This document shows, in pieces, positions 14,348 to 63,730 of a stretch of DNA of 64,000 nt; the first letter of the stretch is position 1, and every line of letters begins with the position of its first letter. Below the pieces are notes generated by a model that saw only the letters and a program-made list of their open reading frames with translations, ran no database searches and was not told the DNA's origin. The stretch is from NCBI GenBank assembly GCA_020055645.1, contig CM034546.1, forward strand, positions 125,013,875-125,077,874, in the 5' to 3' direction. The stretch is from Tomocerus qinae (taxonomy: Eukaryota; Arthropoda; Collembola; Entomobryomorpha; Tomoceridae). Both the position numbers and the translations under genes were made by a program.

Positions 14348-16050
14348 TCTTTATGAAAAATCTTGACTGTTATAACACCGAAAAAAATAAAAGTCCAAAT
14401 CTTTCCATTAAAACGTGGTATAGATGATTATTTCTTTAATGTTTGAGTGTATTGGCCAACGTTCTTGTTTAATACTCAAAAATGGGTAACCTAAATTAAT
14501 AATTTTCTACGCTGGGCTATTAACAATGGGTATTATGATATCATTGTCTCTGACTCAGTATTTACTAATTGTGTTTCTGCAGCAAATATAATTAATTGGT
14601 GCAATATGAAAGTATGTACACCTTGCTTGTAATAAATAGACACCTACACTGGACAATAACCATTGCATTTGACCTGCTTTTTGTTAGAAGGTTAAGGTTA
14701 TTATATTCTAATAACCCAATTGGAGATTTTCATTAATAATGTAAACATTTTCAGAGATTAATTTTAAATAATGTCATTAAATCGAAAATCGCTATACTGC
14801 TACAGAATGAGATAATCAATGTTACCTACCTTTCTCTGTCTGGTAGGATTCTATATTATAACCACAGTATTAGATAGAGCAATAAAGATGGGTAACTGGA
14901 ATAGGACTCACTTGGCCCCATTTTTTCTATGTGAGGGCATTTGCCCACGTAGAAAATGTTATTGGGATTAGAATTAACCAAAAATTAAGTGTATCTCTGG
15001 TTTAGAATATATGGTACTTTATTGGACCGAATTGGACTTTCTTGGACCGAATTGGACTTTCTTGGACCGAATTGGACTTTATTGAACCGAATTGGACTTT
15101 ATTGGACCGAAATGAACTTTATTGGACCGAATTGGACTTTATTGGACCGAATTGGACTTTATTGGACCGAATTGGACTTTATTGGACCGAATTGGACTTT
15201 ATTGGACCGAATTGGACTTTATTGGACCGAATTGGACTTTATTTGACTGAATTTAACCAAAATGGTGTAAAATACATTTTTTGCATGAAAAACTAAATTT
15301 AGTAAATGTGCCCTGCTTAAAAGGGTGTTATTTTATAATCATGTTTTTACTGGATGTCTACATAGTGCTAGTTATAAAATAAGGTAGCTAATTTTACTTC
15401 TGGAAATTATAAGAAATGAGTTTTAAGTTGAAATGAATATTTCGGAAAAATTAAGGTTAAAAACTGTATATAGAATGTTAATTCGAGGAACTGTTGAAAA
15501 TATATAACGAACTGCAAGGAGTTTTCCTAGTTTTACAAATAGGACTTTTTTGTAATTTCAGCCTTACTATAACTATCCGGTTATATAATCGCTGAAATTG
15601 AACAGAAACGGCTGAGTAAACACTAAATATAAATTGTCCATTTAAAGAATTAGTACATTCCGTTCCGACATGTCTATTACTTAACTTGCTGCAATTTATT
15701 CTTGTAATAAAAGGTGACATTGGAAAAACTTATTTATCTAACGTCTCAAATATTATAATGGTTTGCTTCAAAGTCCACCTCCTATCCCGATACCAATGTC
15801 AGAATCCCAAAATGAGTATTTTTATCCGCTCAAAGTGTTAAAGCAGTATAAGGTTTAATACACCAAAATGCCGTGACCGTGAGCCTATACGTAAAATCTT
15901 GCAAAGTCAATGGAGGGAATAATTTTATAGTAATAATCATTCATAGAAGTTCAAATTCAAAATTCATTTGGCTAAGTGATACCTAATGACACCGTGTAGC
16001 TAATAACCATTACATTTTAGCAGTTTGCTGCACTTTATGATGTACCTACA
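14348..16050. other. Intergenic stretch with a 20-bp tandem array
   Basis: Apart from the tandem array (separate entry) I see no gene. It separates the divergent 596-residue protein gene and the ionotropic receptor gene and should contain both promoters; no TATA box stands out. Confidence 0.5.
15021..15240. repeat. 20-bp tandem array, 11 units
   Basis: Eleven head-to-tail copies of a 20-bp unit (ATTGGACCGAATTGGACTTT) with only a few substitutions. The unit is itself a near-duplicate of a 10-bp half (TTGGACcgaa/TTGGACttta). It produces long open frames in more than one frame, but these are only repeat translation and not genes. Confidence 0.95.
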
Positions 16051-32600: not shown

Positions 32601-35600
32601 TTTGACAAGCTTTATCCGTACAATAAGTGATCTATGTGATCGACTAAGCGAGAAAATTACGGAAGCCCAAAGAATTGAAATTATAATGCGTAATTTGCAC
32701 CCCCAGTATAGACAAAAATTACTTCTAAGCGGCAAGGCTTTTGTTACATTACAGGAATTAACAGAACAGGCTTATAAAGCACAGGAAAGTATTAAGGTGG
32801 ATCGAGATTATAGGGAACCTAGTACTACGAGTGCAGTCGAGCCGGGCTTAGCATATAGACCTTTGCAAAATTTGCCCTTACAAACTACAGCGTTTATAAG
32901 TCCACATAGTCTCTCTAGTAATCAACTGCCAGACTTACAACTAGGCTCTTATGATGCATATAGACATTACCATCCAGTAGATGGTGGTAGTCGTATTTCT
33001 AAAAGGAGTCTGTATTCCCAAAATCTGGTTTTGTTACACATCAGAATAGATCTTCATCCTCTAACTCCAGTCGGCAGTATGAAACGGAATATGTTCCTCC
33101 CAAATATTTTGAGCGTGGACCATCTATACGAAATGATGAAAACTTTCACCAAATGGCGCCAATAATAAATAGAGGCTTAGCACAAAGTCTTATCTCTAAG
33201 CAAAGTTATGATGAAAGACAGCAAAATACCACACATAGTTTTGTTGTTGATGCTCCTGAGACTGTACTTCTCAGAATTTGTGGCAAAACCTTTTTGCGCA
33301 GCTTGACGTGTCTTCTCCCATTTCATTTGTTAACGATGAAGTTATCAATGTTATTAAGATTAGACGTGTTCCAATTCATCCATATTTATGTCAAAATATC
33401 ATGGCGCAGGGAAAGAGTTCAGCCAGAGAGTTTGCTAGAATTTTGATTGAATGGGAATCTGGTTTCTAAATTTTGGGATTTTGTGCTCTTACCGGATTCA
33501 AAAGTCCAGGTGGTTTTGGGAACGGTTTTTCTAAGTTATGCTAAACTGGCAGGTTCAAATACAGTTGGTGTGTCAAACCTTGATTGCCTCATCGGAAACT
33601 TCCTCATAGCCAACCCAGAACTCCTTCCTTATCTATTTCTCGTGGGGTCCCTTTGGTATCGGTGATTAACCATGCCGACAACCCTCTGGATATGGTGAAG
33701 GCTGACTCTTCTATACAGGATCTGTTTGTTATTCCTCACATTGCACAGATTCAGGTATCAGTTGAGGACACTGGTAATCTACCCAGCAGTCCCGTCATAC
33801 CAAAGGTAGTAAAAAATGAGGTTATTCAGCAGCCTAGCCAGGTGTCTTCCTCTTCGTTCCTTATTCCTACTGAAACTTGCACTGTCAAGGATCCTGAACT
33901 TAACAAGAGGCTGTCTGTATGTAAAAGCTTACCTGGCATGAATTTCAGTACTTATCGTGTTAAAGTACAACTTTATAATGGCTTGAATATACCCCAGAGA
34001 GAAATATCTAATATCGCCGCGTTCTTTGAACCACCGTTCAACTCCAAGCCGACAGTTTCTCCCTTACCTGAGCTAATCATAGATACAGGCAATGTATTTC
34101 CTGAGAAATCTATGGCTCTTCCTATGGCTCCAACTAAGCGCGCCAATTGTGAGAATTTGTCTAATGCAATTTTGGAGAATGATGTAGTTCCATCCTCCAA
34201 AAATTCCAAGGACTTGAATCCGCTGGAGTCGCAGGGTTCCAATGGTAGATGGGTTTCCCGTTCTAATGATAAACGTTTGAGTGAGATTTATGTTGCTGAT
34301 TTATTTCCTTCCGCCGTAATTGATGACAAATTAGTTTCTGCCCGTAAAGTCAAGTACATCCTTTCTGTTAAAATCCTAACGTTGATTTACTTCATTGCGT
34401 CATTCTGTTTTGTTGCGCTGACTTGTTTTGTCACACCTTCAGAGGGGTCTAAACGGGCTGTAGAGACTTTGTGCGGCGATTGCTTATATTGGTTTTATGT
34501 TGCCATTATATTTCCCATAATTCACGTAATTCTGGAGCAACAGATATGTATTATCGTTAAGTTAGTTTGCCAAGAGGTATGTAACTTGCTGTTTAATTTC
34601 GATCCTGGAATAGTCACACGTCATGAGTCCTTTACTACTATTTCTATTTGCTATAGTAATGAAAATGAGCTAAATGAACCACTATCCAATCAACGAGTAA
34701 GTATTAGTATTATTATTCATGGTAAACTATATGCTAGCTTTATTTATAAAGAAATACAGCTAAAGATGAGAGTCCCTTTACGTTCTTCAAAGAAGACATC
34801 TACTCATTCCGAACTCTTTCATGAGACTGAGAGTTCGTCATCTCCTTCTGCACTCTTTCACGAGACTGAGAGTTGCACACCACAGTTTGAGCCCCACGCA
34901 CTATTTCATGAGACTGAGAGTCGTTCTACGATGTCAACTGCCTATTGATGTCCTCTTGAATATATCAAAAATATTTTTAGATTTATTAGTTAATATCGAG
35001 ATATTATGTAGTAAAAGTACAATATTTATATGTAATAATAGTTCCTAGGCATGTGATATCGGTATGTGAAAACATGGTTATGTGTGTGGTATAGAAAATA
35101 AATTGTTGTATCTCAAGGTTAGGCCAATATCCAAGATAAGTTAGATTGAGCTGCTGTCAATATGGTATTTTAAATTTAAGTTACCACGGTAATTTGAGGG
35201 GGGGGATATGTAGGGATTCATGGATTTGGGCTATAGGGATAGCTTGTAAGGTTGAGTTACAACTCAAGGAACAGTAGTTTTAGTGTAATGTTAAGTTTAA
35301 GTTGTATTTGTAAGCTCTGGGATTGAGCTTACGGGAAATAAACATAGTTTTAAGTGATAAAGTTAATTATAAGATATTTGCAATGACATTTTGGTCATTG
35401 TGAATGCAAAATCAAAAAGAGCTTTAAGGCCTGATTCTGATAGTATATCTTAAGTTGATCCTAGGTCAAGGATCAACGGAGCTAATTACCGTAATAGTTG
35501 AAGGTCGTTGGTGAATAAACGGCTGCAATGGTGTAGTTGTAGCTAAAATAGGTTAAGTGGGTAATTCTAATTCTAGTCGTGATTGGGATTCCTGGGACTT

Positions 35601-47217: not shown

Positions 47218-47765
47218 TCAAATTTTTGGTTCCGAATGTTCGTCTTCATTTTCTACCAAATTGATATTTTTTACTTGAGGAGACTCATCTGTCTTGCCAC
47301 CAGATTCATTTGATAAAGATTGTTTTCTTTTATAGTAGGATAGAAAATTGGCTAATTTCAATTTCTCTGGAGGTGAAGTATCAGGACAATTTTCAGTGAG
47401 ATAGTCAATAATCTGTTGAGGCTTATTGACTCCCCTTTTAAGTAGAGCAATTATTTGTGTCTTCGTTTCCTTACTCATCGACCGCTGTCCAATATGAGTA
47501 TGATTGTGTTCTGCATTATTCGACCATAGATTCACATGAGTGTTTCTGAAATATTGCAATTTCATCCGAAATGGACATTTCTTGCGGCCTTCGTTACACA
47601 AATAATATTCGACTTTTCCATCTACAGTCACGTTTGTGCTCTTCAAACTATATCCATTCTCCCTCATAGTTCCCTCAGCTTCTTTTGGAGACCCGAACGT
47701 TCTCAGCAATGTCCAGCCATTCGCTTTTCTCCCTTTCGAAGAAGAAATCAGCTTTGATTCGCCAC
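47218..47765 (-). CDS. FLYWCH/WRKY-GCM-like module 1 (type I)
   Basis: One exon opening at a strong acceptor (ttaatattatag/GTGGCG, phase 1) and encoding about 182 residues. The upstream ATG frame (from 47826) reads through intron-like sequence and I discount it. The zinc-binding core is VEYYLCNEGRKKCPF (Cx6C), then LKLQYF, LWSNNAEHNHTH (HxH), the fold shared by FLYWCH, WRKY and GCM domains. A helical segment follows (KETKTQIIALLKRGVNKPQQ and so on) and an acidic tail. It is closely related to the modules at 48146 and 49210. Confidence 0.75.
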
Positions 47766-48145
47766 CTATAATATTAAACGAAAATAAAATAATACAAAAT
47801 AAAAAAAGTGTAAAATCAGGCATCATTAAATTTCGCAGTTATTTGTATATTCCATATCCAAGGTGGAATTTCTATCTAATATCTCATCTCCTCTTTCACG
47901 AGAAAAAGATTTTGGCAAGAAGAAGCTCAAGCAGAAGATTATGGACGAAAATATTAAAATTCTATGTGCTTCTAAAGTATGGATATAAATTAAATAAATT
48001 CTATTGGTGCATTAATGATTGCGGAAAATTAAAAAAAACAAAGGAATGATACAAAAACTTTTAAAAATGCATGTTTTATTTAAAAATCCCTTATTTTTTG
48101 GGAAAAATCATCAGCTGGTACAACATTTTGCAAATAGTTTTAATT

Positions 48146-48727
48146 TTAAAGACTCAAAGGTTCTTCTTTGGTATTTTCAAGTTTAAGGTTATCTCCTGGC
48201 TGATCGGGAAAATTTTCAGTAGCTCCAATTTCTCCAGATGAAGAATTCTTTTTGCGGTGGTACTGCAGAAAATTGATTAATTTGCCTTTCTCGGGGGCTG
48301 GGATGGTTGGGCAATTTTCATTGAAGTATTTTATGATCTGCTGAGGTTTGTTGATGCCTCTGTTCAGTAGAGAGATGATTTCGTCTTTCGTTTCTTTAGG
48401 TATAGAGCGTTGAGACCCGTGTTCGTGGTTGTGCTCTGCATCATTCGACCACAAATTCTGAGTTGTATTTCTAAAGTACTGCAGCTTGAGGCGAAACGGA
48501 CATTTCTTGCGACCTTCTCTACAGTTGTAGTACTCCACTTTCCCATCCAAATTGATATTCGTGTAGAGCAAAGAATATCCTCCTTCCCTCACGCTTTCTT
48601 CTGCTTCTTTGGCATTCGTAAACGTCTTGAGTAATGTCCACGCCCATTTTATCTTCATCTTCTTAGGTCTTGAACTCCCTTTCGATGAGGAAACACGACC
48701 GGCACCTTCATTTCCATAATGAACCAT
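48146..48727 (-). CDS. FLYWCH/WRKY-GCM-like module 2 (type I)
   Basis: It could open at an acceptor-like AG at 48706 (AATGAAG/GTGCCG, phase 1, weak pyrimidine tract) or start at the ATG 48727 (MVHYGNEGAG). The conserved GNEG lead shared with module 3 argues for coding sequence across that point. The core is VEYYNCREGRKKCPF, LKLQYF, LWSNDAEHNHEH, followed by KETKDEIISLLNRGINKPQQ. The Lys/Arg-rich start (SSRPKKMKIKWAW) looks like a nuclear signal. An AATAAA follows at about 48075. Confidence 0.72.
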   Translation of the reverse strand: MVHYGNEGAGRVSSSKGSSRPKKMKIKWAWTLLKTFTNAKEAEESVREGGYSLLYTNINLDGKVEYYNCREGRKKCPFRLKLQYFRNTTQNLWSNDAEHNHEHGSQRSIPKETKDEIISLLNRGINKPQQIIKYFNENCPTIPAPEKGKLINFLQYHRKKNSSSGEIGATENFPDQPGDNLKLENTKEEPLSL

Positions 48728-49209
48728 CAGTAAAAATAAATACCCGAAATAATAATAGACAACAAATTATTTACTACTAGTCCCTGGTCATTAGTATTTT
48801 AGACGTAATTTTAGTCCTCTACGGAGTATTTTAAAAACAAATGCTACATAATAAAAAATGTGTGATTGGAATTTTTCAGTCAATGGAATTGATTTCTATT
48901 AGATTTCCTAGTATGCATCTATCAAATCAAGGTAACATTTTTGAAAGAAAACTGCAACCCTTCTTGGGATGTACGATATTCCTAATAAATAATTCACTAT
49001 TTCCGGAAAATGAATTAAAATTATGTAATAAATATGAATTGGCTTTGGTCAATCTGATTTACAAGGAGAAATAAAAGATTAATAGAACTTAAATAATTAT
49101 TTAATTCTGAAGTATCAGCTGATTTATTATGCTTGTACATTACAATCCACTACATTTCATTTTGAAGTTGTCTATCTCCATTTATATGTATAATTTGTAA
49201 TGTTTAGGT

Positions 49210-49784
49210 TTACAAAATGTCTGTTTTATGTATAAACTTGACATTTTTTGTTTCAGTAGGTGGTTCGTCTTCATCTTCTTCCAAATTAACATTTTTCGTT
49301 TCAGAAGGTTCGTCTTTCTTCCCAGATTCACTCCGTGAAGATTTTTTCTTTCTGTAGTAGGATAGAAAATTGGCTAATTTTAATTTCTCCGGAGGTGAAA
49401 TATCAGGACAATTTTCAGTGAGATAGTCAAGAATCTGCTGAGGCTTTTTGATTCCTCTGTTGAGTAGAGCGATTATTTCGTTCTTCAATGCTTTACTCAT
49501 CAAATCAGGTTTCAAATGGGCGTGATTGTGTTCAGCATTGTTCGTCCATAGATTCACAGCAGTGGTTCTGAAATACTGCAACTTCAATCGAAATGGACAT
49601 TTCTTGCGGCCTTCGTTGCACAAGTAGTACTCCACTTTTCCATCCAGATTAATATTTGTGCTCATTAAGGTGTACCCATCTTCTCTCAACGATCTCTCAG
49701 CTTCTTGTGCAGTCGTAAACGTTTTCAGCAATGTCCAGTTCCATCTTTTCTTCCCTTGTGAAGAAGTCATCTTAGTTACGGCAC
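49210..49784 (-). CDS. FLYWCH/WRKY-GCM-like module 3 (type I)
   Basis: Third member of the type I set: VEYYLCNEGRKKCPF, LKLQYF, LWTNNAEHNHAH, a helical segment (LLNRGIKKPQQILDYLTENC) and an acidic tail. It opens at a phase-1 AG at 49785 (AATGAAG/GTGCCG). There is no ATG at the spot where module 2 has one; the first ATG in frame is at MTSSQGKK, still ahead of the domain. A start there or splicing from the shared exon are both possible. Confidence 0.72.
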
Positions 49785-49800
49785 CTTCATTCCCAAACAA

Positions 49801-50266
49801 TGCACGAAGTATGAAAATATTAGAAATAATAATAATTAATGAATATCGTATACTGATCTAATTATTTAGAATAATTATTTGCCATTTCTCTATTTCCAAC
49901 TCATCCCTTTTAAAATGATCTAGAAAAATAACACTTCTGTTACAAAATTGACAAAAAGTAACAAAAGGTAAATCGATATAAATCTGATATGTCTGTAATG
50001 AATTTCTATATTTTCTAGTAGAATCAGTTATTTTACCCAAACCTATCTTATAATTGTTATAATAAGACTATTATAGTTAGTGGAGTCTTAAAAACAAACA
50101 ACGGTGTCAACATTTGTTTTCTGTCTCAAAATTTTAATTATATATTTGCAATCCAAATCATAAATACACAATTTTTCCAACATTATTTTCCAATATAACT
50201 ACATAATAAATGCTAAATAACATATTACAAATTTACTCAGCTTAGATTAGAATACGACTGGAAGGA
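49801..50266. other. Spacer between modules 3 and 4
   Basis: AT-rich intron-like or intergenic DNA with no feature and no candidate first exon for module 3. Confidence 0.5.
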
Positions 50267-51060
50267 TTAGCCTACAGTTTCATCTTTTGAAAGTATTTTA
50301 GCTTCTTTAATTTTCTTTTCTTCGCTTGAGGATGAATGTACTTGTATAAATCCTTTAGGGGTAAAGTCTTTTACAAGGTTAGAAGTTAGTATCGGACTTT
50401 CTGCAGGAATAGGAACAGCAGAAATGTTTCCCCTTGCTCGTGCTCTAATTCGCTGCATGTTTCTTCTGCACGATACTATATTCAATTTCGCAGTAGCAGT
50501 TTCACTAGCACCTGCCATCACTGTGGCAAATATTTCAGAAGGAGGAGTATCACTATTTTCTGCTTCTTGTCTCATTCTGTTAAGCAACTCTAGAATTTCT
50601 ACCCTGAAACAAAAAAAATGACATTAGAAAGGTTTTAGTAGCATTAATATAAATGTAGCAGCAAATAATGCCAATATAGCCTCAAAATGGAATTCGTCAA
50701 AATACAAAAGCCTTTGGTAATTAAATGTCAACATACTTTGTGGGATTAGGAGGATGATCATGCTCACAAGTTAATTTCAAGCGTCCATCGGTGTAACAGT
50801 AAACCGCTTTCCCTTTACAATGATTTTCAGCCATTTCTCCCTTCCTTTTCTCGCAACATCGCCAATAAGAAACATTTCTAACAGTTTTGGTCTTCATATA
50901 CACATATCCCTGATTTTCAAGCTTATCACCTTTAATTTATGGAGTCATTATCAGTATGATACTTATTATGACATTAAATCATAATATTATTCTAAGATTA
51001 TTCTATTACCTCCCCTTTGCGTCCCAAGAAACCTTATAGGTCCATAATCTTCAATGATAT
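50267..51060 (-). CDS. FLYWCH module 4 (type II, with helical tail)
   Basis: Three exons (51060-51010, 50929-50737, 50603-50267). The first opens at a phase-1 AG (GTAAAAG/ATATC) and reads DIIEDYGPIRFLGTQRG. The second carries the FLYWCH finger: NQGYVYMKTKTVRNVSYWRC, a second Cys in ENHCKGKAV, and CEHDHPPNP (HxH). The third encodes the helix shared by all type II modules (VEILELLNRMRQEAENSDTP, then IFATVMAGAS and CRRNMQRIR). FLYWCH fingers bind DNA or RNA. The helical tail after HPPxP is the arrangement I know from FLYWCH-MULE transposase proteins, but no transposase domain is present here. Confidence 0.7.
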
Positions 51061-51200
51061 CTTTTACGTTAAATAAACAAACATTTAAATAGTATATAAA
51101 CACTTTAGGAACAAATTATTGACTAACATGAACAACAGATCTAATTTGACTACAGTAAAAAATAATTCCTGACCTTGGAAATTCTACTGCATATTGAATA

Positions 51201-51799
51201 CAGTGTACAAAATTTACCACTTTTTAGCCTTTTTTACCATCACAGTGGTAAAAATGCACTTAATGGTAAAAATGCATTTAATGGTAAAAATGGTAAATTT
51301 TAGCGATTGATTAGACAGCTGAGTACAGATATACTAGACTTCCTAAAATGTAAGTTTTAAAATTTTATTTTCTATGAAATATTTCCAATTAGCCCCTTAA
51401 TCAATTAAATTAATTATATTTATTTGATTGTACACCAAAAGTTATAAAAAAATGAAGAAAGAAAGATTGTATTTGGTATCGCCCATTTAAAATTGATGCT
51501 AATTTAATTGCAATTAATTTCTCAATCGGCAAGGGTTGTTAGCTCCCCCATTTGTTGAATTCTACTCTGATTGATGAACACTTATCAATTTGTGACAACA
51601 ATGATCATCTGCTAAGCTATTTCATACTTTGGCACCGAATTTTATTCAAAATTCAAACAGGAAATTTAAATGAAACTATTTTTTACCATTTATACCATTT
51701 ATACCACTTACCACTGCTTTTTAGGTAGTGGTATTTAACGTTAAATACCATTAAAAACCACTTACCACTGGTAAGTGGTAAATGGTATTTTGTACACTG
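51201..51799. mobile_element. Non-autonomous hAT-like element, 599 bp
   Basis: Ends CAGTGTACAAAATTTACCAC and the inverse (GGTATTTTGTACACTG), flanked by a perfect 8-bp duplication ATTGAATA (51193-51200, 51800-51807). Subterminal phrases around TGGTAAAAATGCA and ACCACTTACCACT repeat in both orientations, a usual arrangement of transposase-binding sites. No coding capacity. It lies between modules 4 and 5. Confidence 0.88.
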
Positions 51800-51950
51800 A
51801 TTGAATATCCTATTCATTCAGTCTAAATTCTAATGCTATTAATCATGGGAATTCTATGTCAATAAAATTAATAAATGTCGACTGTCTCAGTAATTATTGT
51901 ACCCAATCAAAAAGTCCTAGAGTAAAACATTTAAATCAAACATTGTAAAA

Positions 51951-52548
51951 CTATGGTAGAATTTGAGTATTTTCAGAATTCCCCGCCGTATCTGGCAGTA
52001 TATTTTCTTCCATTTTAACAGTTTCACTTTGAGCAGTTGGCTTTTTAGACTTGGCTTGCTTAAGTTGTCTGAATCGTCTCATATTTCTTTTGCACATGTT
52101 TTCAGAGACATTGGCGACAGCTAGATCTGAGGCTCCTTCCATGACCATAGTAAAAATGAGTGCTGCTGATATGTCTGTCGTTTCAGCTAGCTCCTTCATC
52201 CTTCGCATCAACTCTATGATTTCCAAGCTACAAATCAAAAGGTTTTAGTAATTTTCTTACGTACAATTTCCAAAAAATAATAACTAAAGGCATACCGAGC
52301 AGGTTCTGGAGGATGGCTGTGATCAGCAGTGACAACAAATGCATGAGTTTCTCTGTTGAAATTTGCTCTTGCTTTGCATTTGGTTCGTCTTTCACAACTC
52401 AGGTATAAGACATTCTTTTCCTCACTTCGTCTGTTGTACAAATATCCACCGCTTTCGAATTTTTCATTTCCTTTGAGTGACTCCAGGATTTGAACTGGAA
52501 TGGGTGGTGCATTATCTTTCGGTAACTTACATCGTGAACCGCGATTAA
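51951..52548 (-). CDS. FLYWCH module 5 (type II, with helical tail)
   Basis: Two exons (52548-52296 and 52227-51951), phase 2 between them. It opens at a phase-1 acceptor (GACTTAG/TTAATC). Exon 1 has a lead (PPIPVQILESLKGNEKFESG), the FLYWCH core GYLYNRRS, YLSCERRTKCKARAN and TADHSHPPEPAR. Exon 2 gives LEIIELMRRMKELAETTDIS, IFTMVMEGAS and CKRNMRRFRQ. The tryptophan of the consensus YW is replaced (VLYLSC). Confidence 0.7.
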
Positions 52549-52922
52549 CTAAGTCAGTGAAAACAAACTGTCAATTTTGGGTTACTTAAAATCTAGAGCT
52601 ATTTAATTGATATGGTGCAACACAAAAAATGCTCGTTAAATATCTGTAAACAGATGTTTATTCGTCATAACAAGTAACATTTCATTGGTAAATTAATTAT
52701 GTCGAATCCGCACGTAAGCAACTCTAAAGTATCACGAATACTATTTAATTGTTAATAAATAATTGTAATGCAAGCGATTTTCTAACATATATATCGTTCT
52801 AAATAATTTTTCAATGTACCTATAAATAATAAACTATTATATTGTGCTGAATTATGCGAATAATAACTATATAGGCTTCACTGGGTATTTCCATCGATCA
52901 GCTGATCTACAGAATTTAGTGA

Positions 52923-53551
52923 CTATTGTGACGTCAGAGTTAAATCTAGAGTAGAGAGAGCACCCAAATTTGTTTCTGTTGAGTCTGAAATGTGAATTAA
53001 GTCTTCTAGCATGTGCGCTGCATTTTCAGTTTCATCGACAATTTGTTCTTCCCCGAAATGAGGTTTTATTTGTGCTGATGATTCATTTCCTTCTGTATTA
53101 TCAGATTTTGGTTTTCGAGACTGTTTATTAGAATGAATGCCATGTCTTTCCTTAAATCTGGCCAACCAGCCATTTGTAGCTGTCCATTGTCCGTCTGGAT
53201 TCAATTGCTTGTAAATCTCGTCAGCCTTCGTTTGTAACATGGCACTGGTCACTTCTTGTTTCTCCAGAGATACATTCGTCAGCCATTCATACAAAGCTTT
53301 GTCTACTTGTGGCTGTGAGCCAGTTTTCAACCGCTTCCGGGCATTTTGGCCTGAACAAACTGCATCTTCGATATTGTGCTTGGAATTCTTTATTCTACTG
53401 ACTATAGAAGGTGATAGTTTGTACAGTTTACTCACTTCACTAGCCTTTTTAACACTTAACTGCTGGAGAATTTCCAGTTTTTTCTCGTAAGTTAAAACAT
53501 TTCTCCGCATTTTTACGCCTTGTTGTTTGGCGCGACTAATGGTAATAAGCC
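52923..53551 (-). CDS. CENP-B/pogo-type DNA-binding protein module, no DDE domain
   Basis: A single exon of about 210 residues. It can open at a strong phase-1 acceptor (gtttgttgtccacag/GGCTT), or start at the ATG 53510 (MRRNVLTYEKK). The N-terminal half has two HTH domains typical of CENP-B and Tigger/pogo transposases: a psq-type HTH (TYEKKLEILQQLSVKKASEV, SKLYKLSPSIVSRIKN) and a CENPB-type HTH (VDKALYEWLTNVS, TNGWLARFKERHGI). The acidic tail (ETENAAHMLEDLIHISD) ends without any DDE catalytic domain. It looks like a host-adopted DNA-binding part of a pogo-like transposase that uses the same splice phase as the FLYWCH modules around it. Confidence 0.75.
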
Positions 53552-53960
53552 CTGTGGACAACAAACGAAAAGTAAATGAACTACTTAAAGATACATTTGC
53601 AAATCAGCTTCCAAGATGTGTACATCTCTATGCAAATGCAACAAGAATGTATTCTACCTAAGCCTAAACATAAAAAAATGCTTAAAATTTTGTATACACA
53701 TGTTTATCAATTGAATGCCCTTAATTTTATTATACTTGCTTACATTAATTATTCTCCAGTGCAAACTTAGAGTACCTACGTGCGGATTTGATCATAGTAT
53801 AATATATAATTATAAAATATTATCAATATATATTTAATTAAAACCTATTTAATTGATTTTTGAAATAATACCTAACCCTAAAATTAAACTGGTCTCATTA
53901 TACGAGTAATTGTACCTAAACGATCCATCCATTTAAACCAATAGATACAAACAGCTATTT

Positions 53961-54623
53961 TTATAACAAAATTTTATTTCTATCTATCTGGGACAAATTA
54001 GGTAGAGTGGGACCAATTAGTTCAGCATCTGATGTAGAAGGTGTTGTTATATTTGACTCTGGTATAATTTTTTCTGTTTTTGGTGACTTTTTTGGCAAAC
54101 GTGGTGGTTTGCTTTTTCCTCCTATGCCCTTTGACTTCCTAAAGTTCAGTATGTTTCGTTTGCACGATTCTTCAGATAAGCTGCCTTTGGCCACATCACT
54201 AGCTCCAATCATAACTCTAGCAAATATATCTCCAGGCTTATCTTCACTAATTTCTGCTGCTACACGCATTTGATACAACAACTTCAAAATTTCGAATCTA
54301 GTATAAGAAATATATTAATTAGAATAATTAATTCCATTTAAATTAAATTAAATTATTTTTAATTGTTTAAAATTGGTACCTTCCGGGATCTGGTGCATGA
54401 CTATGTTCCTGAGTCTTGACAAAGCCGTCATTTCTGTTATACGTTCCTCTACCTCTGCATTTATCTCGTTTTTCACAAGACCAGAAGGACATAGACAAGG
54501 AATCATTCTTCGTAAAAACATGGCAGTACAGATAATTTTCGCATTCTAATTTTTGCTTTCCACGTTGTGATTCAACAAACTGGGCGACTTTTCCTTTAGG
54601 TGATAGATCTGCAGCTACTACAG
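53961..54623 (-). CDS. FLYWCH module 6 (type II, with helical tail)
   Basis: Two exons (54623-54380, 54297-53961), phase 2 between. It opens at a phase-1 acceptor (AAATCAG/CTGTAG). Exon 1: GKVAQFVESQRGKQKLECEN, the finger SFWSCEKRDKCRGRGTY and EHSHAPDPG. Exon 2: FEILKLLYQMRVAAEISEDK, IFARVMIGAS and CKRNILNFRKS, then a Pro/Lys-rich tail (GGKSKPPRLPKKSPK) that may be a nuclear signal. Confidence 0.7.
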
Positions 54624-54978
54624 CTGATTTATAATTAATTCAGATAATTAGTTCCATAGATATTAACAATGTAATCCTGCTTTGCTTTACTATCCGCCTA
54701 GCTTACTACTTTGGAGGATTACCATTGTATGTTTTCCTATTCAAAGCTATATTTTCTTCTATTGGTCTATGTAATTGTACCAAAAAATTAACTTCGATGT
54801 TAATTTATATAAAATAAATAGGAAACAATAATTAGAGCCTAATTATAAATGAAAATCATATTCAACTAGTTTGATGCGCAGTTGTTACCTATTAGTATGC
54901 ATGGCAAAATAAATCCTACCAAATGTAGATCTAACGCTTCAAAACTAAATAATTTAACTGCTTTAAAGTTAAAGAGCA

Positions 54979-55549
54979 TTAAACTATTGGTTGAAGTTTA
55001 TCTGTATCTTTTTTCTTATTTCGTATCCTTCTTATATTTCGTTTGCAACCATCTTCAGAAAATCTTGGAAGGACGTCTGCACTTGCTTCAGCCATTACTG
55101 ATGCAAATATACTTGCAGGCGTATTGTCTGAATTTTCCGCTTCCATTCGCATTTTTTTCAACAATTCCAAAATCTCCAACCTGTCAAAAGAAAATGAATT
55201 TATTATTAGAGCTAGAAAGATAATTAGGCAATAAATTCTTTTACTTGTAATTTAGAATAAAGAATAGTTAAGAATTGTCTTTATTGTCTTACCTGTGAGG
55301 ATCTGGTGGATGATTGTGTTCACATTTGACTCGAAGACCTGTGTCCCTTAATATTGCTCTTCCTTTACATTTTTTATTGCCTTTTTCACAACGCCAATGT
55401 GATACGCCATTTTTCTCGGGTTTTATTTTGTAATAGAAAAACCCTGAACTTTCAATTTTATCCTTGCCTCTTCTCGTCTCCAAAACGCGAACGGGTTCTC
55501 CGTCCTCGTATTCAATTTCTTTATCATAAGCAACATACACAGGATTCAT
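54979..55549 (-). CDS. FLYWCH module 7 (type II, with helical tail)
   Basis: Two exons (to 55293; 55180-54979), phase 2 between. Exon 1 can start at the ATG 55549 (MNPVYVAYDKEIEYEDGE) or be spliced at a phase-1 AG at 55519 (GATAAAG/AAATTG); the second option is weaker than in other modules. The finger reads GFFYYKIKPEKNGVSHWRCE, KCKGRA and CEHNHPPDP. The tail has LEILELLKKMRMEAENSDNT, IFASVMAEAS and CKRNIRRIRNK. Confidence 0.7.
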
Positions 55550-56295
55550 AATGGAAAAACCGCTTTGCAAAGTGTGCACATTAATGATCACAAAACGAAC
55601 TTTTATGCCTAATATGACATGCTAAACGTATCCTTCCATAATACCTCCACAGGGTAATTACTGACTAATTACATGATCAAATGGATTCTAAGATGGTTAA
55701 AGGCATAAGTAATATACCCTGCTAAAGTATTATTATGTCTATTTGGAATTTCAACCATTTTGGTTATGCATATTGAAAATCACCATAAACTTTTTTCAAT
55801 TATTTACCATACAGCTAAACGTGAGTAGTTCCATTACATTAGAATATTATTTTACACAGGCTAAACTTAAATTGGTCACAGTAATTGCACCATGAACATT
55901 TTATTTTTCTCTTTTATGTAATTAACAACGTAGCAATTCAAAATTCAAATAGTAATTATTAGATTTTAAATTAATTGTCTATAAATTAAGAACTGATAAC
56001 ATTAAAAATTATTCGGCATTTTGAAAAACGGAAATAATTTAAAATCCACAAAAGATAAAAATGAACTACAAAGTTACTACTCTAATATTCCTCCCTACTT
56101 AGAAACAACATTATTACTATTCCTAATTTCTACTTAGGGAAGCATATTTAGAAAATCAAATTAAGCTTAGTTCAGAAGCAACAATGTTTGCAATAATTAA
56201 ATTACATCACAATCTAATGACACTTGGTACAATGCTAACAATCGTATGAACACAGTTTTAAGACGAAATCAGCTGATAGCAAAGATTCTTAATAA

Positions 56296-56880
56296 TTACA
56301 GCACAACATTTAGATTTTGTTCGGTTTCAATTCTATCTCCTGAGCCTGAGACATTCATTTTACTGGCTTTACGTACATAGGAAATCTGTCTTTTCCATGA
56401 TTTAGTACATATTACAGCAGCTGCTTGTTCACTGGCTTGCTGCATCACAAACTTAAATATCTCTTTGGACGACTTATTTGTTTGTTCTGCCTCAACCCGC
56501 ATTTTTCTCATTAATTCCAAAACTTCATATCTAAAAATGTAACAAATTATTTTTATTATTTGAAGATATTCAAATTTTAAGGAAGATAATGATAAATATA
56601 TGGATCTTGGACATTCTAACAAAATATAGTTAAACTAACCTGCAATTATCTGGAGGATGATTATGCACTTGTTTTACTTCAAATACTTTCCCCTCTCTGT
56701 AAACAGCTTTTGCGTCACAAAATTTTGTTTTTCCTCGTCTCTCACACCGCCAGTAGGAATCTCCTTTTAAAGCTTTTGTCATACAGTAGAGGTAACCTCC
56801 ATACTCAATCTTTTCTTTTCCTTTTTGAGACTCAACGTAGCGAACTGCCTCAGTCCCTAGTACTGTTTTCTTTTCTTTCG
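56296..56880 (-). CDS. FLYWCH module 8 (type II, with helical tail)
   Basis: Two exons (56880-56640, 56530-56296), phase 2 between. It opens at a phase-1 acceptor (GAATTAAG/CGAAAG). Finger: GGYLYCMTKALKGDSYWRCE, FCDAKAVY and QVHNHPPDN. Tail: YEVLELMRKMRVEAEQTNKS, IFKFVMQQAS and SWKRQISYVRKA, where the otherwise conserved cysteine of CKRN has been replaced. Confidence 0.7.
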
Positions 56881-57136
56881 CTTAATTCATAAAAAAGTAT
56901 CTCTATCAAAGACTGCACAAGAGATACATTCTATTTCAAAAATATTTCCAATGTTGTCCTAAATATCTAATGCCATTTAGTATGCTGCACTAAAATCTAA
57001 CGAAGAACTGTCTAATCAATATTAAATAATGTAAACAACCATCGCGTAATTACTAATACATTATAATATGAATTTTTGAAGTCAAAATTGCTTGAATATT
57101 GTGAATTAGGATTTTTTGGTGGTTCAGGATATCTTT

Positions 57137-57639
57137 TCACTTTTGATTTTCGTTGTGGATGAGTTTTTGTTGTTTTTCTCTGAATGTTTTCAAGACTGAG
57201 TTCAGTTGACTAGTAGTTGGAAGGTCAAATTGTTCTTGTTCTAAAACTTGCATGATCTTCATAGGTTTGTAGTGTAATTGAAGCAATTCGAAAATTCTCT
57301 GTTTGATAGGAGGAGGGAGCCCCTTTTCAACATGATTACAATGATCCATGGCGTTTGTGTATAAACCAACTTCCGTACGATTTTTGTAGAAGAAAAGATA
57401 CACTTTGGCAGGACAGCGTCTTTGGCAGTAATAAAATGTCTTTTTCCCTTTCTTCTGAAATTTTGTGCCGTGAACCTTCCACCCTTCATCCACTAAGCTC
57501 TTTCTCGCAACTTCTTCATTTTCAAAGTTCTTCACGAAATCCCATAGCACGCTGGGACCGCGGGTAATTTTAGTCCGCGACTCTTTCTGACCTTCGCTTC
57601 GATGTCCTATCTTTTTTTTGCTATTATTCCTCACATCAC
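57137..57639 (-). CDS. FLYWCH/WRKY-GCM-like module 9 (type III)
   Basis: One exon of about 167 residues opening at a phase-1 acceptor (ACTAATGTAG/GTGATG). The frame has no ATG before the domain, only a GTG, so splicing from an upstream exon is required. Basic start (NNSKKKIGHRSEG). Core: KTFYYCQRRCPAKVYLFF (Cx3C), LYTNAMDHCNHVE (Hx2H), then a helical tail (KQRIFELLQLHYKPMKIMQV). It is related to module 10 at 60472 and more distantly to the type I set. Confidence 0.75.
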
Positions 57640-58327
57640 CTACATTAGTTAAGAACCATAATAAAAATTATGCGCTAACAGATGCTCGCGTTAAATGTCC
57701 AATATTTATTTACTTTTTAAAATATATAAAAAAGGGAGCACAAAGAATTACTGAAAATTCAATCTTTTGACAAGTTCTAACATTATCAAACTTAGTTTTC
57801 TCCTCAGTCTCGTTTGAATTTAAATGTAATATTTCCAATTCTCCTATTCTTCAATTTAATACTAAGCCTTTTGACTTTACTAAACTACGTATATTTGTTT
57901 TTATGAATAAAAACTAGTCCAACACAAGTTAAAAAATTCAAAAACAAAAACCGTGACAGAAAGAAAACGGTAATATTTATTAAGCTTAACAGCTGATTGT
58001 AAATATTATTAGCATATTGTAGTTTTGATCTGAATTATTAATATTCACCAGTCCAATACTGTCTTTAATTAATTTTATGTTACAGATTTTAATTGTGGCA
58101 TTTTAATTTCATCCACTTGGAAATACAATTCTTTTCTAAAGGGGAACTAACCACTGCAGTGACAGTTAATAAAATTTATTCTAAGTCTCACTTAAGGAGT
58201 AGGCAAGTGATAGCATAGTACACTAGTAAGAAGTAAATAAGGTTATTTCGCTCAAATAAATTAGCAGTTTGAAATATTGTATACTACTCTGACAAAATGT
58301 ATAAAAATGACTATTAATTACAACGTC
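57640..58327. other. Spacer between module 9 and BED module 1
   Basis: AT-rich, no coding feature. No candidate first exon for module 9 was found here. Confidence 0.5.
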
Positions 58328-58749
58328 TTAGAACAAGGACTTTTTCTTAGAGCCTGTTTTTTCTAGTGATATCTCCGGATGCTTATTTCGCATATGTTTG
58401 AGAACAGTAGATGTACTGGAAATGGCTGCATTAGACCAACTGGAATGAAATATTATATTTTAAATGACATATTTTGAAGCCTTTGCTAGAATATCATTAA
58501 AAGTAATTTGAAACCCTAAGAAATGTGGGACTATTTCATGTTGCAACTACCTGCAATATTTGCACTGAACACGATTTCCAATTATTGGATTGAGATGCAG
58601 GTGGATAGCCGATCTTTTCTTCCGAGTCCTTTTAGGAACACTTGCACTTGTACTCCCTTCAACTGCAACTATAGCGTTTGAAGATCCTGCAACTACTGTC
58701 TCGATAGTCTCGAATGTGATGTAGCCACCACCCCAGCTTTCTATACTCA
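58328..58749 (-). CDS. BED zinc-finger module 1
   Basis: Two exons (58749-58551, 58439-58328), phase 2 between. It opens at a phase-1 acceptor (ATTTGTAACAG/TGAGTATAG) and has no ATG. A Ser/Ala-rich lead (VVAGSSNAIVAVEGSTSASV) and a basic patch (PKRTRKKRSAIH) precede a BED finger split by the intron: RVQCKYC, WSNAAISSTSTVLKHMRNKH (CxxC...Hx4H), and a short basic end. BED fingers are DNA-binding domains of many hAT transposases and of host proteins derived from them. No dimerisation or catalytic domain follows. Confidence 0.75.
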
Positions 58750-59421
58750 CTGTTACAAATAAAAATCAGAATAACTATAAGCATAATCCATAATCTACCC
58801 GTATGTACAGGTATCTAACACATTCAATATCCAGAAAACCATCACTACTATAATCATAGTGCGAATGGAATAGAAATAGAATCATAGCACGGCCTTATGT
58901 ATAAAACCCTTCTTTTGAATTCTCAGCTGTTTGTCAATGAATAGCCTCTAAAACTGCTAAATATTTTTGATAATAAATATTACTATCCAAGAAAACATGA
59001 ATCTAAGAAAACTTTTGATTCGTAATTCCTTAAGAAGAGCGAAATATTAACTTTATTAACTGTTACGAATAGAATACCTTTCGGACAAGAAAACTGACTT
59101 CATCTATAATAATGCCAACCACCTAAGATACGGAAATATTGCTTGAAGTTCCCTACTCACATACTTTTGAACTCAGAGTAATTATTTAAAACGAGTTAGC
59201 TAAGGTTAACTACATGGGGACTTAATTAAATTATCGTGATTTACTAGGGACACTAGGTAGTGCCCCAAACGATTTTCTTGCAATATTTTGGAAACGCTTT
59301 GCTGATTGAGAGTTACAACAGCAACATAAAAATGCAATTGGTTTTAATCTTCATAGTCGCTGTAAGTAAAATTGTTGTCACTTGTTAATAATTTGAAAGA
59401 GTCACAAATTCTGTTATTGCT

Positions 59422-59800
59422 TCAGCGTTTGTCCATTGAAATCTCCGGATGTTTATTTCGAATATGTTTGCAGACATTAGATGTACTGGTAGTTTTCGAA
59501 AAGGACAAACTGGAAAGAAATATTTTAAATTGAGATATTTTGAAGCATTATATAAATAAAGGAGGACTATCAATTCAGTTTCAAATATAGAGTAAACAGA
59601 TTTTTATATTGCTTTTACCTGCAATAATTACAATAAACACGATTGCCAACTGGAGTGACGTGCCTGTGTACAACTGCTGTTTTCTTCCGAGTCCTTTTAA
59701 CAACACTCATTTCAACTACAATATTTGAAGGTCCTGCAACTATTGTCTGTGCCTCGTTTGTGATGTAGCCATAGTCATCGTCATCGTATTCTAAGCCCAT
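59422..59800 (-). CDS. BED zinc-finger module 2
   Basis: Paralogue of BED module 1 with the same intron (59800-59619, 59509-59422; phase 2). Lead MGLEYDDDDYGYITNEAQTI, basic patch VKRTRKK, finger RVYCNYC, then TSTSNVCKHIRNKH. At the point where module 1 has the acceptor ACAG/TGAGTATAG this copy reads ACAATGGGCTTAG: the AG is lost and an ATG has appeared. It may therefore use its own start, or be unable to join the shared exon. About 93 residues. Confidence 0.72.
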
Positions 59801-60471
59801 TGTTACAAATAAAAGTCAATTTTTGTAAAATTGATTTACCTACATATATATAACCCATATTCTACTCTGCCTAAGACTAAGCAAGGAAACAACTAATACA
59901 CAATCACAACACGATTATAATATGGTCATTATAATGTTTGACAGTTAAAAACTTATTTAGTTTGAATCTCCTATCCCATTCTTAAAGGAAACTAAGTAAA
60001 TTTTGCCACTGATCTAGTTTCTAAATTATGATTATTGTTGATACAGGCGATAGTACAAAAAAACCAGAAAATAATTTAGGAAATTATCGGAATCTTTCTA
60101 AGAATGTTGAACAAAGCTTCTAAATAAAACTTCTACCATTTTCATAAGATTGAAACACCGAAGCCTAAGTTTTGACGCAATAATTACGGAAAAATTGACC
60201 TCATTGATAACTGCCTTCGCAAATATTATTGAACCAAGACTAATCTTGTTTATAATTTAAAATAGGTTAAAGATGTGGAGTTATTTTACAGGTACACTTG
60301 CTGCTTAATAAATTTCTTTTTCTTGGAGAGGACTAGTCTTGATTTTGCTATAAGCTGTACGCTATCGATTTGTTTTTCATGTTTTGAAACTTCATTTTCT
60401 TAAATGCTTGAGTGAGAGGAACGAGGTATATTGATTTTCATTTTGCTAATTCACTGCGAATTAAGATACTG

Positions 60472-60794
60472 TCACTTGAAAATTTTGTTGTATAAGTTGA
60501 CCAACTCGGACGAATTACAAGCTCCATGAAGCGGATATTCATGATTGCTGTGATCAAAGTTATTTGAAAATAATTCAACTTCCACTTCGTTTTTGAAAGT
60601 CAACAAGTACAATTTTGCTGGACATGACTTTTGGCAATGATAATAGATTCTTTTGGCATTGTTAGCTTTAATCTCTCTTGTGTAGTCAACTTTCCATCCT
60701 GCCAGAGATAACTTTTCTTTCGCACTTTTTTCATTATCCAATTTGGTAGCAAAATAATACTTGGTCCGCTCTTTTCTTTTTCGTACTATTGTCA
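60472..60794 (-). CDS. FLYWCH/WRKY-GCM-like module 10 (type III)
   Basis: One exon of about 107 residues opening at a phase-1 acceptor (TTTGTTACAG/TGACAATAG), nearly the same acceptor sequence as BED module 1. No in-frame ATG precedes the domain. Basic start (VRKRKERTKYY). Core: KRIYYHCQKSCPAKLYLL (Cx3C), LFSNNFDHSNHE (Hx2H). It ends shortly after the domain. It is the module nearest to the shared 5' exons. Confidence 0.72.
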
Positions 60795-62560
60795 CTGTAA
60801 CAAATCCAAAACACAAACCATTGATATACAATACATAAATATATTGAAATTATTTTCTACTTATGTTTTTAAATTAAAATTACCTGTTGTTTATTTTCCG
60901 AAATTCACAAAATTTTGACTTTTGTCGATGTCTTGAACGTCAGATGTAAATCAAACTCAAAGGACAATAAAAATGTTTCGACTTCCGATCACAATTTACA
61001 AAATATCTGTAGACTTTTCTCGGGAAGTAGTTAATTTTACAAACTAATCAGTAATGCCAGAAAAGTCGAAAACGAGGTCTAATATAATTTTTCTTAGATG
61101 AAATATTATTCAAATAAGCAGTTTTCATTTGGATGAAAAAATAGTAATTGAATGGACTCCACTAAATATGCAAAGATGAACCTTCTCTCAAATAATCAGT
61201 GGCGGAAATGTTTGATGATGTAGTTATCTATTCAAACTAATCTCAAAGCCAATCAACGAATTCAGATCTAAAAGTACAGGAGGACCATCATATACCAAAT
61301 AGCAGTACAACTGACATCTATTAATTGTATATAAGATACCAAAAGCATTACCACTAGGAGAATGAAATACTATTTAAATAAAAAATTACACCTTCAACTA
61401 ATTTAATATTTAATGCAACACTATCATTGTATTTTCAGCTTTGACGTGGCAAAATTCAATTTAAACGGATATCTAAGATGGATTCACCCCCTTTTTGTCA
61501 ACACTAAAATGTCAACAGAGCCAAAAAAATCAAAAAACCTTTTTGTCAACACCGCTTTCTTTTTTGTCAACACCACTTTCTTTTTTGTCAACAGCAATGT
61601 CCCTTTTTGTCAACACCACTTCTATAGAGGTTTATTTCTGGCATATTAAATAAATAGTCAAATAAATATGAGGTAATCAATCAGATAAGCACTTGGAAAA
61701 TGTTCTGTTCATAATAAATAGTTAAATAACCAGATGAGATAATAACAAGACTGTAAGAACGTAATTGTACGTACCTATCATTAGCTAAATTCAAGGGAGA
61801 TAGCGGTGTATTTTTTTAAGTCCCGTATTGATCCATACAGAGAAAGACATTTTAGATCAGTTTTGTATAATCTTTTTTAACATTTTTGAATAATACTGTG
61901 GAGTTTCAAGATTATTTTTGTTAGGAAAAGTGTTTTGTACATAGATGCGGATTAATATAGTCTCGGTTAGGTGCTGCTCTGTTTAAACCAGGAACTTTAC
62001 TCCATAAACTTGCATCTGCTAGGCCGAGTGGCAAGGGTAGTGAGTAGCTTAGTTAAAACTATACATCTTGTCTCATAATGTACAACTTAAATTGGAAGTT
62101 GTGCTACATATATAGACAATCTGTTGACAAAAAGGGTGTTACGTGTTGACAAAAAGGGATCTCAAAAATAATTTGTTGACAAAAAGGTGTTGACTAAAAG
62201 GTGTTGACAAATAGGGGTCCTTCCCTAAGATGGACCAAAAACTTCAAAATTCTACAGTTAATACACACAGTACATTTAAAGTAACAACTAGCTAAAAATG
62301 CGTCAGTCGATAAAAAATAGATGCATTATAAAATTATGAACGGCATAATGTTCTCAATTTTTTAATCTAAATTGCTGATTTTACAAGAATGCATAGTGAA
62401 TATAGAAAATTATTGATACAACAGACAGACTAACTTTTTTTTGAATTTTTGTATTTGCATCGGACTAGTTGTTTCATTTAATCGCGAAACTATCCCATTA
62501 GGAAAAACAATTATTTTGGATTTTTGAATGGCAGCTAAAAATACATTTTTGATTAGGTAC
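60795..62560. other. Intron-like stretch between the shared exons and the first module
   Basis: Carries one 744-bp foldback transposon (separate entry). Otherwise no feature seen. Confidence 0.5.
61481..62224. mobile_element. Foldback element with repeated GTTGACAAAAAGG sites
   Basis: 744 bp. The left part contains several CTTTTTGTCAACAC phrases and the right part the reverse (GTGTTGACAAAAAGG), so the ends fold on each other. Flanking direct repeats CTAAGATG (61473-61480 and 62225-62232; identity extends to CTAAGATGGA if the element's end is shifted by two bases) indicate an 8- to 10-bp target duplication, as in hAT or MULE families. No coding capacity. Confidence 0.8.
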
Positions 62561-62602
62561 AATTACTGAGACCAATTTTTCGTAGTAGAGATTCCTTATA
62601 AA
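62561..62602 (-). CDS. Possible small optional exon of the shared 5' part
   Basis: A 42-bp segment between a good acceptor (TTGATGCAG) and a donor (gtacct). It is phase 1 on both sides and encodes VYKESLLRKIGLSN. It could be a fifth shared exon or an optional one; because both phases are 1, its presence or absence would not change frame. Weakly supported. Confidence 0.3.
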
Positions 62603-62817
62603 CTGCATCAATACAACAGATGTTCTGTAAAACTACCCTAGCTCACCAAATGGTATTCATTTTTAATTAAGCTATATATAAAGAGCATTTTTCTTAATGC
62701 TCAGAAGAGTTGCCTATTTTTACTAACTGTTACTATTTGATAGATGTACGCATCCTGTCTGATTGTGTTGCTGGCTATGCTAGTAATATTATAAAACATT
62801 TTGAATACGGGGCTCAC

Positions 62818-63730
62818 CTTTCTCTTGAGATGGGCGCTGTCCTTCTGTTTCTGCTGAGGGTAAGAAATCAGGATCCTTTTCTATTGAGTCATTGGGGTCT
62901 TCGTCATCGTCACTTTTGTCGTTTAAGAAATCATCATTTCCGTCTGAGTCATCATAGTCTCTTTGTATAGTTTCATCCTCTGTGGATGTTTTAAATGTTT
63001 TCAATCGAAATTAATTATTATACATTTAAATATTTACATCATACATTTATTTAGGGATTTTAATCTAATTTATAGCTTACTAGGAATTAACAGTTGATCG
63101 CTGTCGCTTATTTGAATATCTTTTGGTTCGATTTGAATACCAATACTTAATGGATCGATGTCCATTCCAGAATCATGTGTGAGATGATGTGTGCCAGTCT
63201 TTTCAGTTTTTTGCATTTTATCGCTTCGCCCGCCCATTTCACTACCACTTGTGCTAGCTGTATTACCAGCTTTCCTTCCTTTCATTATTCAAAAATTAAA
63301 CGAAAAAATTAATATAAACGTTAAGTTTTATTCTATTAATATATATAACAGTAAATATGACCCTAATCCGTAAACATCACCTACTTTTTCGTCCTCGGCG
63401 TGTACGGGATGAAATATTTGCTCCTTCAACTGTTTGTTCTGACGAAGTGTGTGGAACAGATGGACCGGCAACTGGCGAGCCTGGTTTTGAATAGCCACTC
63501 GGACCAAGAACTTCTCCTACGAATGATAAAATAAAGAAGGCATTAAAAAATAATATCAAAACAATTAAGACATTTTTATATCTAGCTACATTATTATTGT
63601 CTTTCTTACCAAATCTTTCCGCAATAAAATCTTCAAGAAGATATACTCGAGTGGTCAATCTCCAAACAGCATCTTTCAGAGAATCCACTTCTACGTCCGA
63701 ATCAAAGTCGATATTTCGATTTCGTTCCAT
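62818..63730 (-). CDS. Shared acidic N-terminal region of the FLYWCH/BED locus
   Basis: Four exons (63730-63610, 63516-63385, 63278-63081, 62979-62818), all joined in phase 1, give 204 residues and end in AAAG/gtgagc, again phase 1, with no stop codon. The start is MERNRNIDFDSDVEVDSLKD. A short helical or coiled-coil stretch (LTTRVYLLEDFIAERFG) is followed by a Pro/Ser-rich linker (GPSGYSKPGSPVAGPSVP), a basic nuclear-signal-like patch (RTRRGRKRRK) and an acidic end (YDDSDGNDDFLNDKSDDDED ... DPDFLPS). No BTB domain is visible. Since the coding sequence needs a further exon to end, and all downstream modules begin in the matching phase, it probably supplies the N-terminus for one or many of them. 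Confidence 0.72.

Follow-up and report, generated by a model that had tools for sequence, protein, structure and literature searches.

Two Drosophila genes come closest to the locus described here. In mod(mdg4) and its arthropod relatives, one N-terminus is joined to alternative 3' exons, mostly of the FLYWCH type, and lola likewise combines a shared N-terminus with many alternative DNA-binding 3' ends. To our knowledge, these are rare cases of a single N-terminus with many DNA-binding ends, and both are based on a BTB domain. According to the accessible part of PMC4667647, the variable exons of Drosophila mod(mdg4) come from independent transcripts, and cis-splicing is described for the mod(mdg4)-like genes of a beetle, two hymenopterans and Daphnia. 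Here we analyze a 64,000-nt stretch of the genome of the collembolan Tomocerus qinae (assembly GCA_020055645.1, contig CM034546.1, positions 125,013,875 to 125,077,874), hereafter the window. Its minus strand carries four N-terminal exons followed by an array of DNA-binding modules, which we read as probably one gene whose shared N-terminus is spliced to any of 13 DNA-binding ends. The locus would resemble mod(mdg4) in its working, but it is not that gene; its sequence places it in a zipper-headed host family with transposase-derived ends.

The original prediction for this DNA held that the exons from 63730 to 62818 end in a phase-1 donor without a stop, and this was confirmed:

63610 to 63730, minus strand: shared exon 1, with the ATG and a leucine-zipper-like helix VDSLKDAVWRLTTRVYLLEDFI; phase-1 donor; present about 30 times in the genome
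63385 to 63516, minus strand: shared exon 2, with a GEVLGPSGYSK... motif; phase 1 to phase 1
63081 to 63278, minus strand: shared exon 3, ending ...LLIP; phase 1 to phase 1
62818 to 62979, minus strand: shared exon 4, with an acidic stretch DDFLNDKSDDDEDPNDSIEKDPDFLP; phase-1 donor AAAG/gtgagc; stop-free

Together these exons encode 204 codons plus one G without a stop, all four donors are in phase 1, and the reading frame is closed by a stop 75 nt upstream of the shared ATG. A Pfam scan found no BTB domain in the 204 shared residues. Exon 1 is represented only once inside the window, at 63730, in genome searches at both E<=0.001 and E<=0.1.

On the same strand, 3' of exon 4, lie 13 intact DNA-binding modules, the last of which ends at 47218, in agreement with the predicted array of thirteen:

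60472 to 60794, minus strand: M1, WRKY-like, a relative of M4; WRKY match at 0.0094, below the cut-off; no ATG before the domain
59619 to 59790, minus strand: M2 exon 1, BED finger (zf-BED 7e-06); phase-1 acceptor 59790, not 59800
59422 to 59509, minus strand: M2 exon 2 and stop
58551 to 58749, minus strand: M3 exon 1, BED finger (zf-BED 2.6e-4), a duplicate of M2
58328 to 58439, minus strand: M3 exon 2 and stop
57137 to 57639, minus strand: M4, WRKY-like; matches MULE transposase N-termini
56640 to 56880, minus strand: M5 exon 1, FLYWCH (3.2e-12)
56296 to 56530, minus strand: M5 exon 2 and stop
55293 to 55518, minus strand: M6 exon 1, FLYWCH (1.1e-08); start uncertain
54979 to 55180, minus strand: M6 exon 2 and stop
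54380 to 54623, minus strand: M7 exon 1, FLYWCH (1.4e-06)
53961 to 54297, minus strand: M7 exon 2 and stop
52923 to 53551, minus strand: M8, Tc5/CENPB-type helix-turn-helix (HTH; HTH_Tnp_Tc5 2.4e-15)
52296 to 52548, minus strand: M9 exon 1, FLYWCH (8.1e-07)
51951 to 52227, minus strand: M9 exon 2 and stop
51010 to 51060, minus strand: M10 exon 1, start of FLYWCH
50737 to 50929, minus strand: M10 exon 2, FLYWCH (9.8e-10)
50267 to 50603, minus strand: M10 exon 3 and stop
49210 to 49784, minus strand: M11, WRKY-like; alternative phase-1 acceptor 49754
48146 to 48705, minus strand: M12, WRKY-like; alternative phase-1 acceptor 48678
47218 to 47765, minus strand: M13, WRKY-like; WRKY domains rank first for its predicted model

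The array thus holds four kinds of module: FLYWCH, WRKY-like, BED and Tc5-HTH. Seven modules (M2, M3, M5, M6, M7, M9 and M10) have two or three exons and the others have one; all 13 are open to their own stop, and the introns of the multi-exon modules are consistent. Our Pfam scans covered 11 of the 13 modules, namely M1-M10 and M13. In this set, FLYWCH rose above the PF04500 cut-off in M5, M6, M7, M9 and M10 and was absent from M1, M2, M3, M4, M8 and M13, none of the modules passed the zf-C2H2 cut-off, and the MULE catalytic core PF10551 was not found.

The same genome contains a BTB/FLYWCH locus, 18 Mb from the window locus, with its BTB exon (PF00651, 1.1e-11) at C1:106.977 Mb and FLYWCH modules reaching to 107.011 Mb. 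The BTB exon donor is in phase 1 (GCATTAG/GTAAGA), and among 17 module starts picked by eye, the 13 that are FLYWCH-like, including 11 with a Pfam match, all begin at a phase-1 AG. The BTB/FLYWCH locus serves as a positive control for the design and shows the window locus to be separate from it, which bears out the prediction of a locus independent of mod(mdg4), lacking BTB and having mixed folds. Within the interval of the BTB locus (G000, C1:106976730-107011220, L011-L015), several acceptors share a similar intronic stretch, of the form TTTTGNTTTGNTTGATAG, before GTGG, and C2H2-, BED- and integrase-like open frames were noted by eye. The window locus has in common with mod(mdg4) the FLYWCH domains in variable 3' ends, present in five of its modules, and with the mod(mdg4)-like BTB/FLYWCH locus the phase-1 junction. 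Unlike mod(mdg4), however, it carries a zipper-like helix in place of BTB, mixes several module folds, occupies a separate locus, and has FLYWCH domains that are much closer to MULE transposases (FLYWCH plus a helical exon) than to the eight BTB-locus FLYWCH domains compared. It differs from lola as well, having no BTB and no C2H2 module among the 11 scanned.

The decisive support for a shared-head design comes from paralogues elsewhere in the genome. Five loci (L024-L028) were read through; each has the same four exons with between one and three modules after them, the exon-4 donors are in phase 1 at all five, and each of the nine modules has a phase-1 AG. The acidic or third exon could be found by motif in 19 of 30 loci, exon 3 rather than the acidic exon being the match in two of the 19 (L055 and L056), and the best donor is in phase 1 in 18 of these. 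The sole exception, L070, lacks a good donor because its acidic exon continues directly, with no intron, into an integrase-like module. At L068, the acidic exon and a WRKY-like module share one 251-codon frame, in which GGTAAG remains at the former donor site. Across 14 other family loci with 19 modules, a phase-1 AG is available in 18, and the best AG is in phase 1 in 15, phase 2 in three and phase 0 in one; for 15/19 the P value is 6e-5 if the phases are equal and 8.5e-4 under the observed AG share. These donor and acceptor counts support the shared N-terminus, phase-1 donor and alternative 3' ends of the original prediction, and the two paralogues in which acidic exon and module are fused in a single frame agree with its design.

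Inside the window, a phase-1 acceptor is present in all 13 modules. The original prediction had named 12, all of which proved to be AGs at the positions given, but the module it excepted, at 59800, also has an in-frame phase-1 AG, 10 nt further on, which starts the M2 exon at 59790. When the AGs in the open frame before the domain are scored by pyrimidine tract, the best one is in phase 1 in 12 of the 13 modules (P 1.7e-5 for equal phases; P 0.004 with the observed phase-1 AG share, 45/84, as the null). The acceptors 48705 and 49784, flagged earlier as weak, each have a better-scoring phase-1 AG downstream, at 48678 and 49754. For M6, the choice of 55518 among alternative acceptors had likewise been flagged; another phase-1 AG, at 55608, is found further upstream and has the better tract, and a local ATG at 55549 comes before 55518, so the start of this module is uncertain.

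These observations bear on whether the array could be a set of separate small genes, in which the shared exons serve M1 or a few modules while the rest are independent, transposase-derived genes, each with a promoter and start of its own. Such genes would fit the in-frame ATG found close to the domain, or ahead of it, in M2, M6, M8, M11, M12 and M13, and the weak acceptors of M6, M11 and M12. Seven of the 13 modules (M1, M3, M4, M5, M7, M9 and M10), however, lack an ATG ahead of the domain in their open frame, which puts a count to the several that had been predicted, and the gap between M4 and M5 is just 256 nt. Furthermore, in none of the 13 gaps does an ATG-to-phase-1-donor frame exceed the 95% shuffle level (300 single-base shuffles; the longest frame, before M10, has 35 codons), consistent with the earlier view that no separate first exons are visible. 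Since the paralogues also join the same N-terminus to like modules, and in two cases are fused to them, we regard separate genes as quite unlikely.

A number of results weigh against a single gene with alternative ends. Scored by a position weight matrix (PWM), which was trained on only 11 internal introns and applied to a stretch slightly different from that of the tract score, the best AG is in phase 1 in 9 of 13 modules and in phase 0 in 4, giving a P of 0.009 for equal phases and 0.20 under the stricter AG-share null. Because of this, the phase signal from the window alone is suggestive, short of decisive. The 13 first acceptors are middling by PWM; their median falls within the top 25% of AGs overall, four reach the top 10%, and several are weak. 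Poly(A) signals (AATAAA or ATTAAA) occur in 10 of the 13 gaps, those for M1, M4 and M6 being without one, although we rejected these signals as evidence since 10/13 is near the chance level in AT-rich sequence by our own estimate. Among the paralogues, the phase-1 donors of L063 and L064 score only 5 of 9, the BED module of L087 has no phase-1 AG, three modules at other loci have a better AG in another phase, and we infer the assignment of modules to exon-1 copies from position and frame. In our comparisons with transposases, M1 matched only M4. Finally, a search with the shared part and M10 against a set of 5.8 billion proteins gave 0 hits at E<=0.001 among 3754 candidates; FLYWCH relatives were also missing, so this set may lack such animals and rarity is not indicated.

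Beyond what the original prediction recognized, the window locus belongs, by its first exon, to a family of about 30 genes. Exon 1 has 34 genome matches at E<=0.1, the last three marginal, of which 33 are on contig C1 and one is on C5; at E<=0.001 there are 31, giving 30 loci. Twenty-two of the matches, the window's own included, are 76-100% identical. In all 30 exon-1 rows, which represent 29 distinct copies (the L055 row repeats its neighbour), a phase-1 GT follows straight after the same codon position, and a pattern search located the exon-2 motif at 16 of these 30 loci. Over the 231 pairs of the 22 close copies, 69 of them saturated at silent sites, the pooled proportions of synonymous (pS) and nonsynonymous (pN) differences are 0.65 and 0.096, with a pN of 0.05 in codons 15-40. 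An ungapped comparison of the flanks, 57 nt upstream and 60 nt of intron, gives 30% identity. The genes of this family are old, and strong purifying selection keeps their first exon. The a/d heptad positions of the exon-1 helix (15, 18, 22, 25, 29, 32 and 36), mostly V/I and L, are hydrophobic in 29-30 of the 30 copies, and position 39 breaks the heptad (0/30); by the general rules for coiled coils, such a helix would presumably form a parallel dimer.

The window locus is the largest and most elaborate member of the family seen so far. At least nine FLYWCH and M13-type matches lie within 25 kb downstream of its exon 1, compared with at most two at every other locus listed; these are lower bounds, with 97 of 133 FLYWCH matches (C1 only) and 32 of 55 M13-type matches entered. 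Of the 97 FLYWCH matches, at least 12 lie within that distance downstream of exon-1 copies and the remainder are elsewhere. The family is dispersed, yet almost confined to C1 (140 of 334 Mb). Two members 54.5 kb apart, L064 (C1:129654191) and L063 (C1:129708717), encode exon-2 and exon-4 peptides that are identical in the parts that were matched, which marks them as an apparent recent duplicate pair within an otherwise old family. Downstream of other exon-1 copies, C2H2 frames occur at L088 (Pfam) and L090 (by eye), and at L086 (C1:47.92 Mb) a DDE_1 transposase core comes after a Tc5-type HTH, which may be a capture that retained the catalytic part or a plain insertion.

Most of the modules are related to the DNA-binding domains of transposases, a point that the original prediction missed. 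Nine of them (M4, M5, M6, M7, M9, M10, M11, M12 and M13) match transposase N-termini of the MULE type from this same genome, and the MULE core was confirmed in L007, L079 and L080. The FLYWCH modules match the FLYWCH-plus-helical N-terminus of the MULE L007 and of a similar repeat, L002, at E values of 1e-15 to 1e-25, and MULE N-termini are matched by M11-M13 at 1e-12 to 1e-23 and by M4 at 1e-5 to 1e-8. M1, M2 and M3 had no transposase match in a comparison set that held no hAT element. M8 has its closest relative (49% identity) 3.2 kb downstream from a different copy of exon 1. By similarity, transposase descent is shown for all five FLYWCH modules and for four of the five that are WRKY-like, and it is likely for the Tc5-HTH and BED modules.

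The array might, on the other hand, be a graveyard of unused transposon fragments, or of tandem family genes stripped of their N-terminal exons, and repeats with related FLYWCH domains are indeed present in 98-99% identical copies. We consider this very improbable: each of the 13 modules is an open frame up to a stop, with consistent introns in the multi-exon ones, the ratio of nonsynonymous to synonymous substitution rates (dN/dS) among M11-M13 is 0.13-0.39, the transposase core was found in none of the 11 modules scanned, and the best matches outside the window are just 43% (M13) and 49% (M8) identical.

Trees of module origin, which have 12 and 11 short rows and few strong forks, keep the five window FLYWCH modules together on one side of a weakly supported branch (62/83). 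This arrangement disfavors a separate capture of each module and makes local duplication likelier. M11-M13 form one group (99/99), M1 and M4 form another (92/92), the WRKY-like module of L024 groups with MULEs (90/96, 87/86), and a second FLYWCH clade is found at L026-L028 (100/100). The placement of L024 and the L026-L028 clade argue for several captures within the family, and the four module kinds would imply at least four captures if their source was transposons and not sister genes. Descent from the BTB locus was rejected, since M10 alone matches one of its eight FLYWCH domains, at 1e-4.

From the anatomy, reading frames, family, selection and transposase similarity described above, we infer that the modules are spliced to the shared exons, that the proteins dimerize and bind DNA, and that the modules were captured through the phase-1 donor. 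The shared exons would be driven by a single promoter upstream of 63730, and the phase-1 donor of exon 4 would be joined to one terminal module per transcript. Up to 13 proteins could result, each with a helix for pairing, an acidic region and a single DNA-binding domain. The leucine-zipper-like helix would serve in pairing, and paralogues and isoforms can probably pair together or bind one partner; free pairing or a common partner is suggested by a helix that is near-invariant while the other parts have diverged. During its evolution, the phase-1 donor may have captured transposase DNA-binding domains without their catalytic core, with partial local duplication following later.

Within the reading of one gene with 13 ends, the ends could also be joined in trans, with two RNAs spliced together as in Drosophila mod(mdg4). 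The layout is the same as in that gene, whose variable exons come from independent transcripts, and a module joined in this way needs no start codon. All parts lie on one strand within 16.5 kb, however, where ordinary alternative splicing is enough, and the beetle, hymenopteran and Daphnia genes reported as cis-spliced (PMC4667647, accessible part) point the same way. Trans-splicing therefore seems unlikely, and cis alternative splicing is the likelier form of the proposed mechanism.

Fusions of host and transposase sequence have been described before. KRABINER (Cosby et al. 2021, as cited in the accessible part of PMC12062965) is a host-transposase fusion gene, and fusions of this type likewise splice a transposase DNA-binding domain to a host domain. 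In contrast, a single donor in the window locus would be used by 13 modules of four kinds, and the host part recurs at about 30 loci. Metazoan transcription factors derived from transposons, with FLYWCH, CENPB, ZBED and THAP domains and species-specific expansions, are presented as independent genes in the accessible part of PMC10027918, whereas here there would be a common N-terminal cassette and one array locus. We did not meet such a family in the literature covered, which included the accessible parts of PMC4667647, PMC10027918, PMC12062965 and PMC5225508 and excluded most subscription papers.

The window also holds several other elements. Between exon 4 and M1, at 61484-62217, is a foldback-like element with TTTTTGTCAACA repeats in inverted arms, and the gap between M9 and M10 contains a second set of inverted repeats, of the TGGTAAAAATG type, at 51244-51780. 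A retrotransposon gag frame (PF03732, 1.9e-07) at 32179-33162 is situated in a G+C-richer stretch (30-36 kb), and a minisatellite at 15016-15253 consists of 11.9 copies of a 20-nt unit with 95% matches.

The occurrence of the same design on an unrelated helix indicates that it can arise independently. With sister loci that have a single module, a small set or a fusion, and with related transposases, the steps from transposon to array should be traceable in one genome. It is conceivable, though we think it doubtful, that a single phase-1 donor placed after an invariant zipper works as a standing trap for transposase DNA-binding domains, and that the roughly 30 loci dimerize and recognize and repress their parent transposons. 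By analogy, and just as tentatively, that repertoire could be the arthropod counterpart of the KRAB zinc-finger repertoire, reached by exon capture instead of finger duplication. The locus and its family open to test how genes with alternative 3' modules originate, and whether domains that were captured have kept their binding to the ends of the parent transposons.

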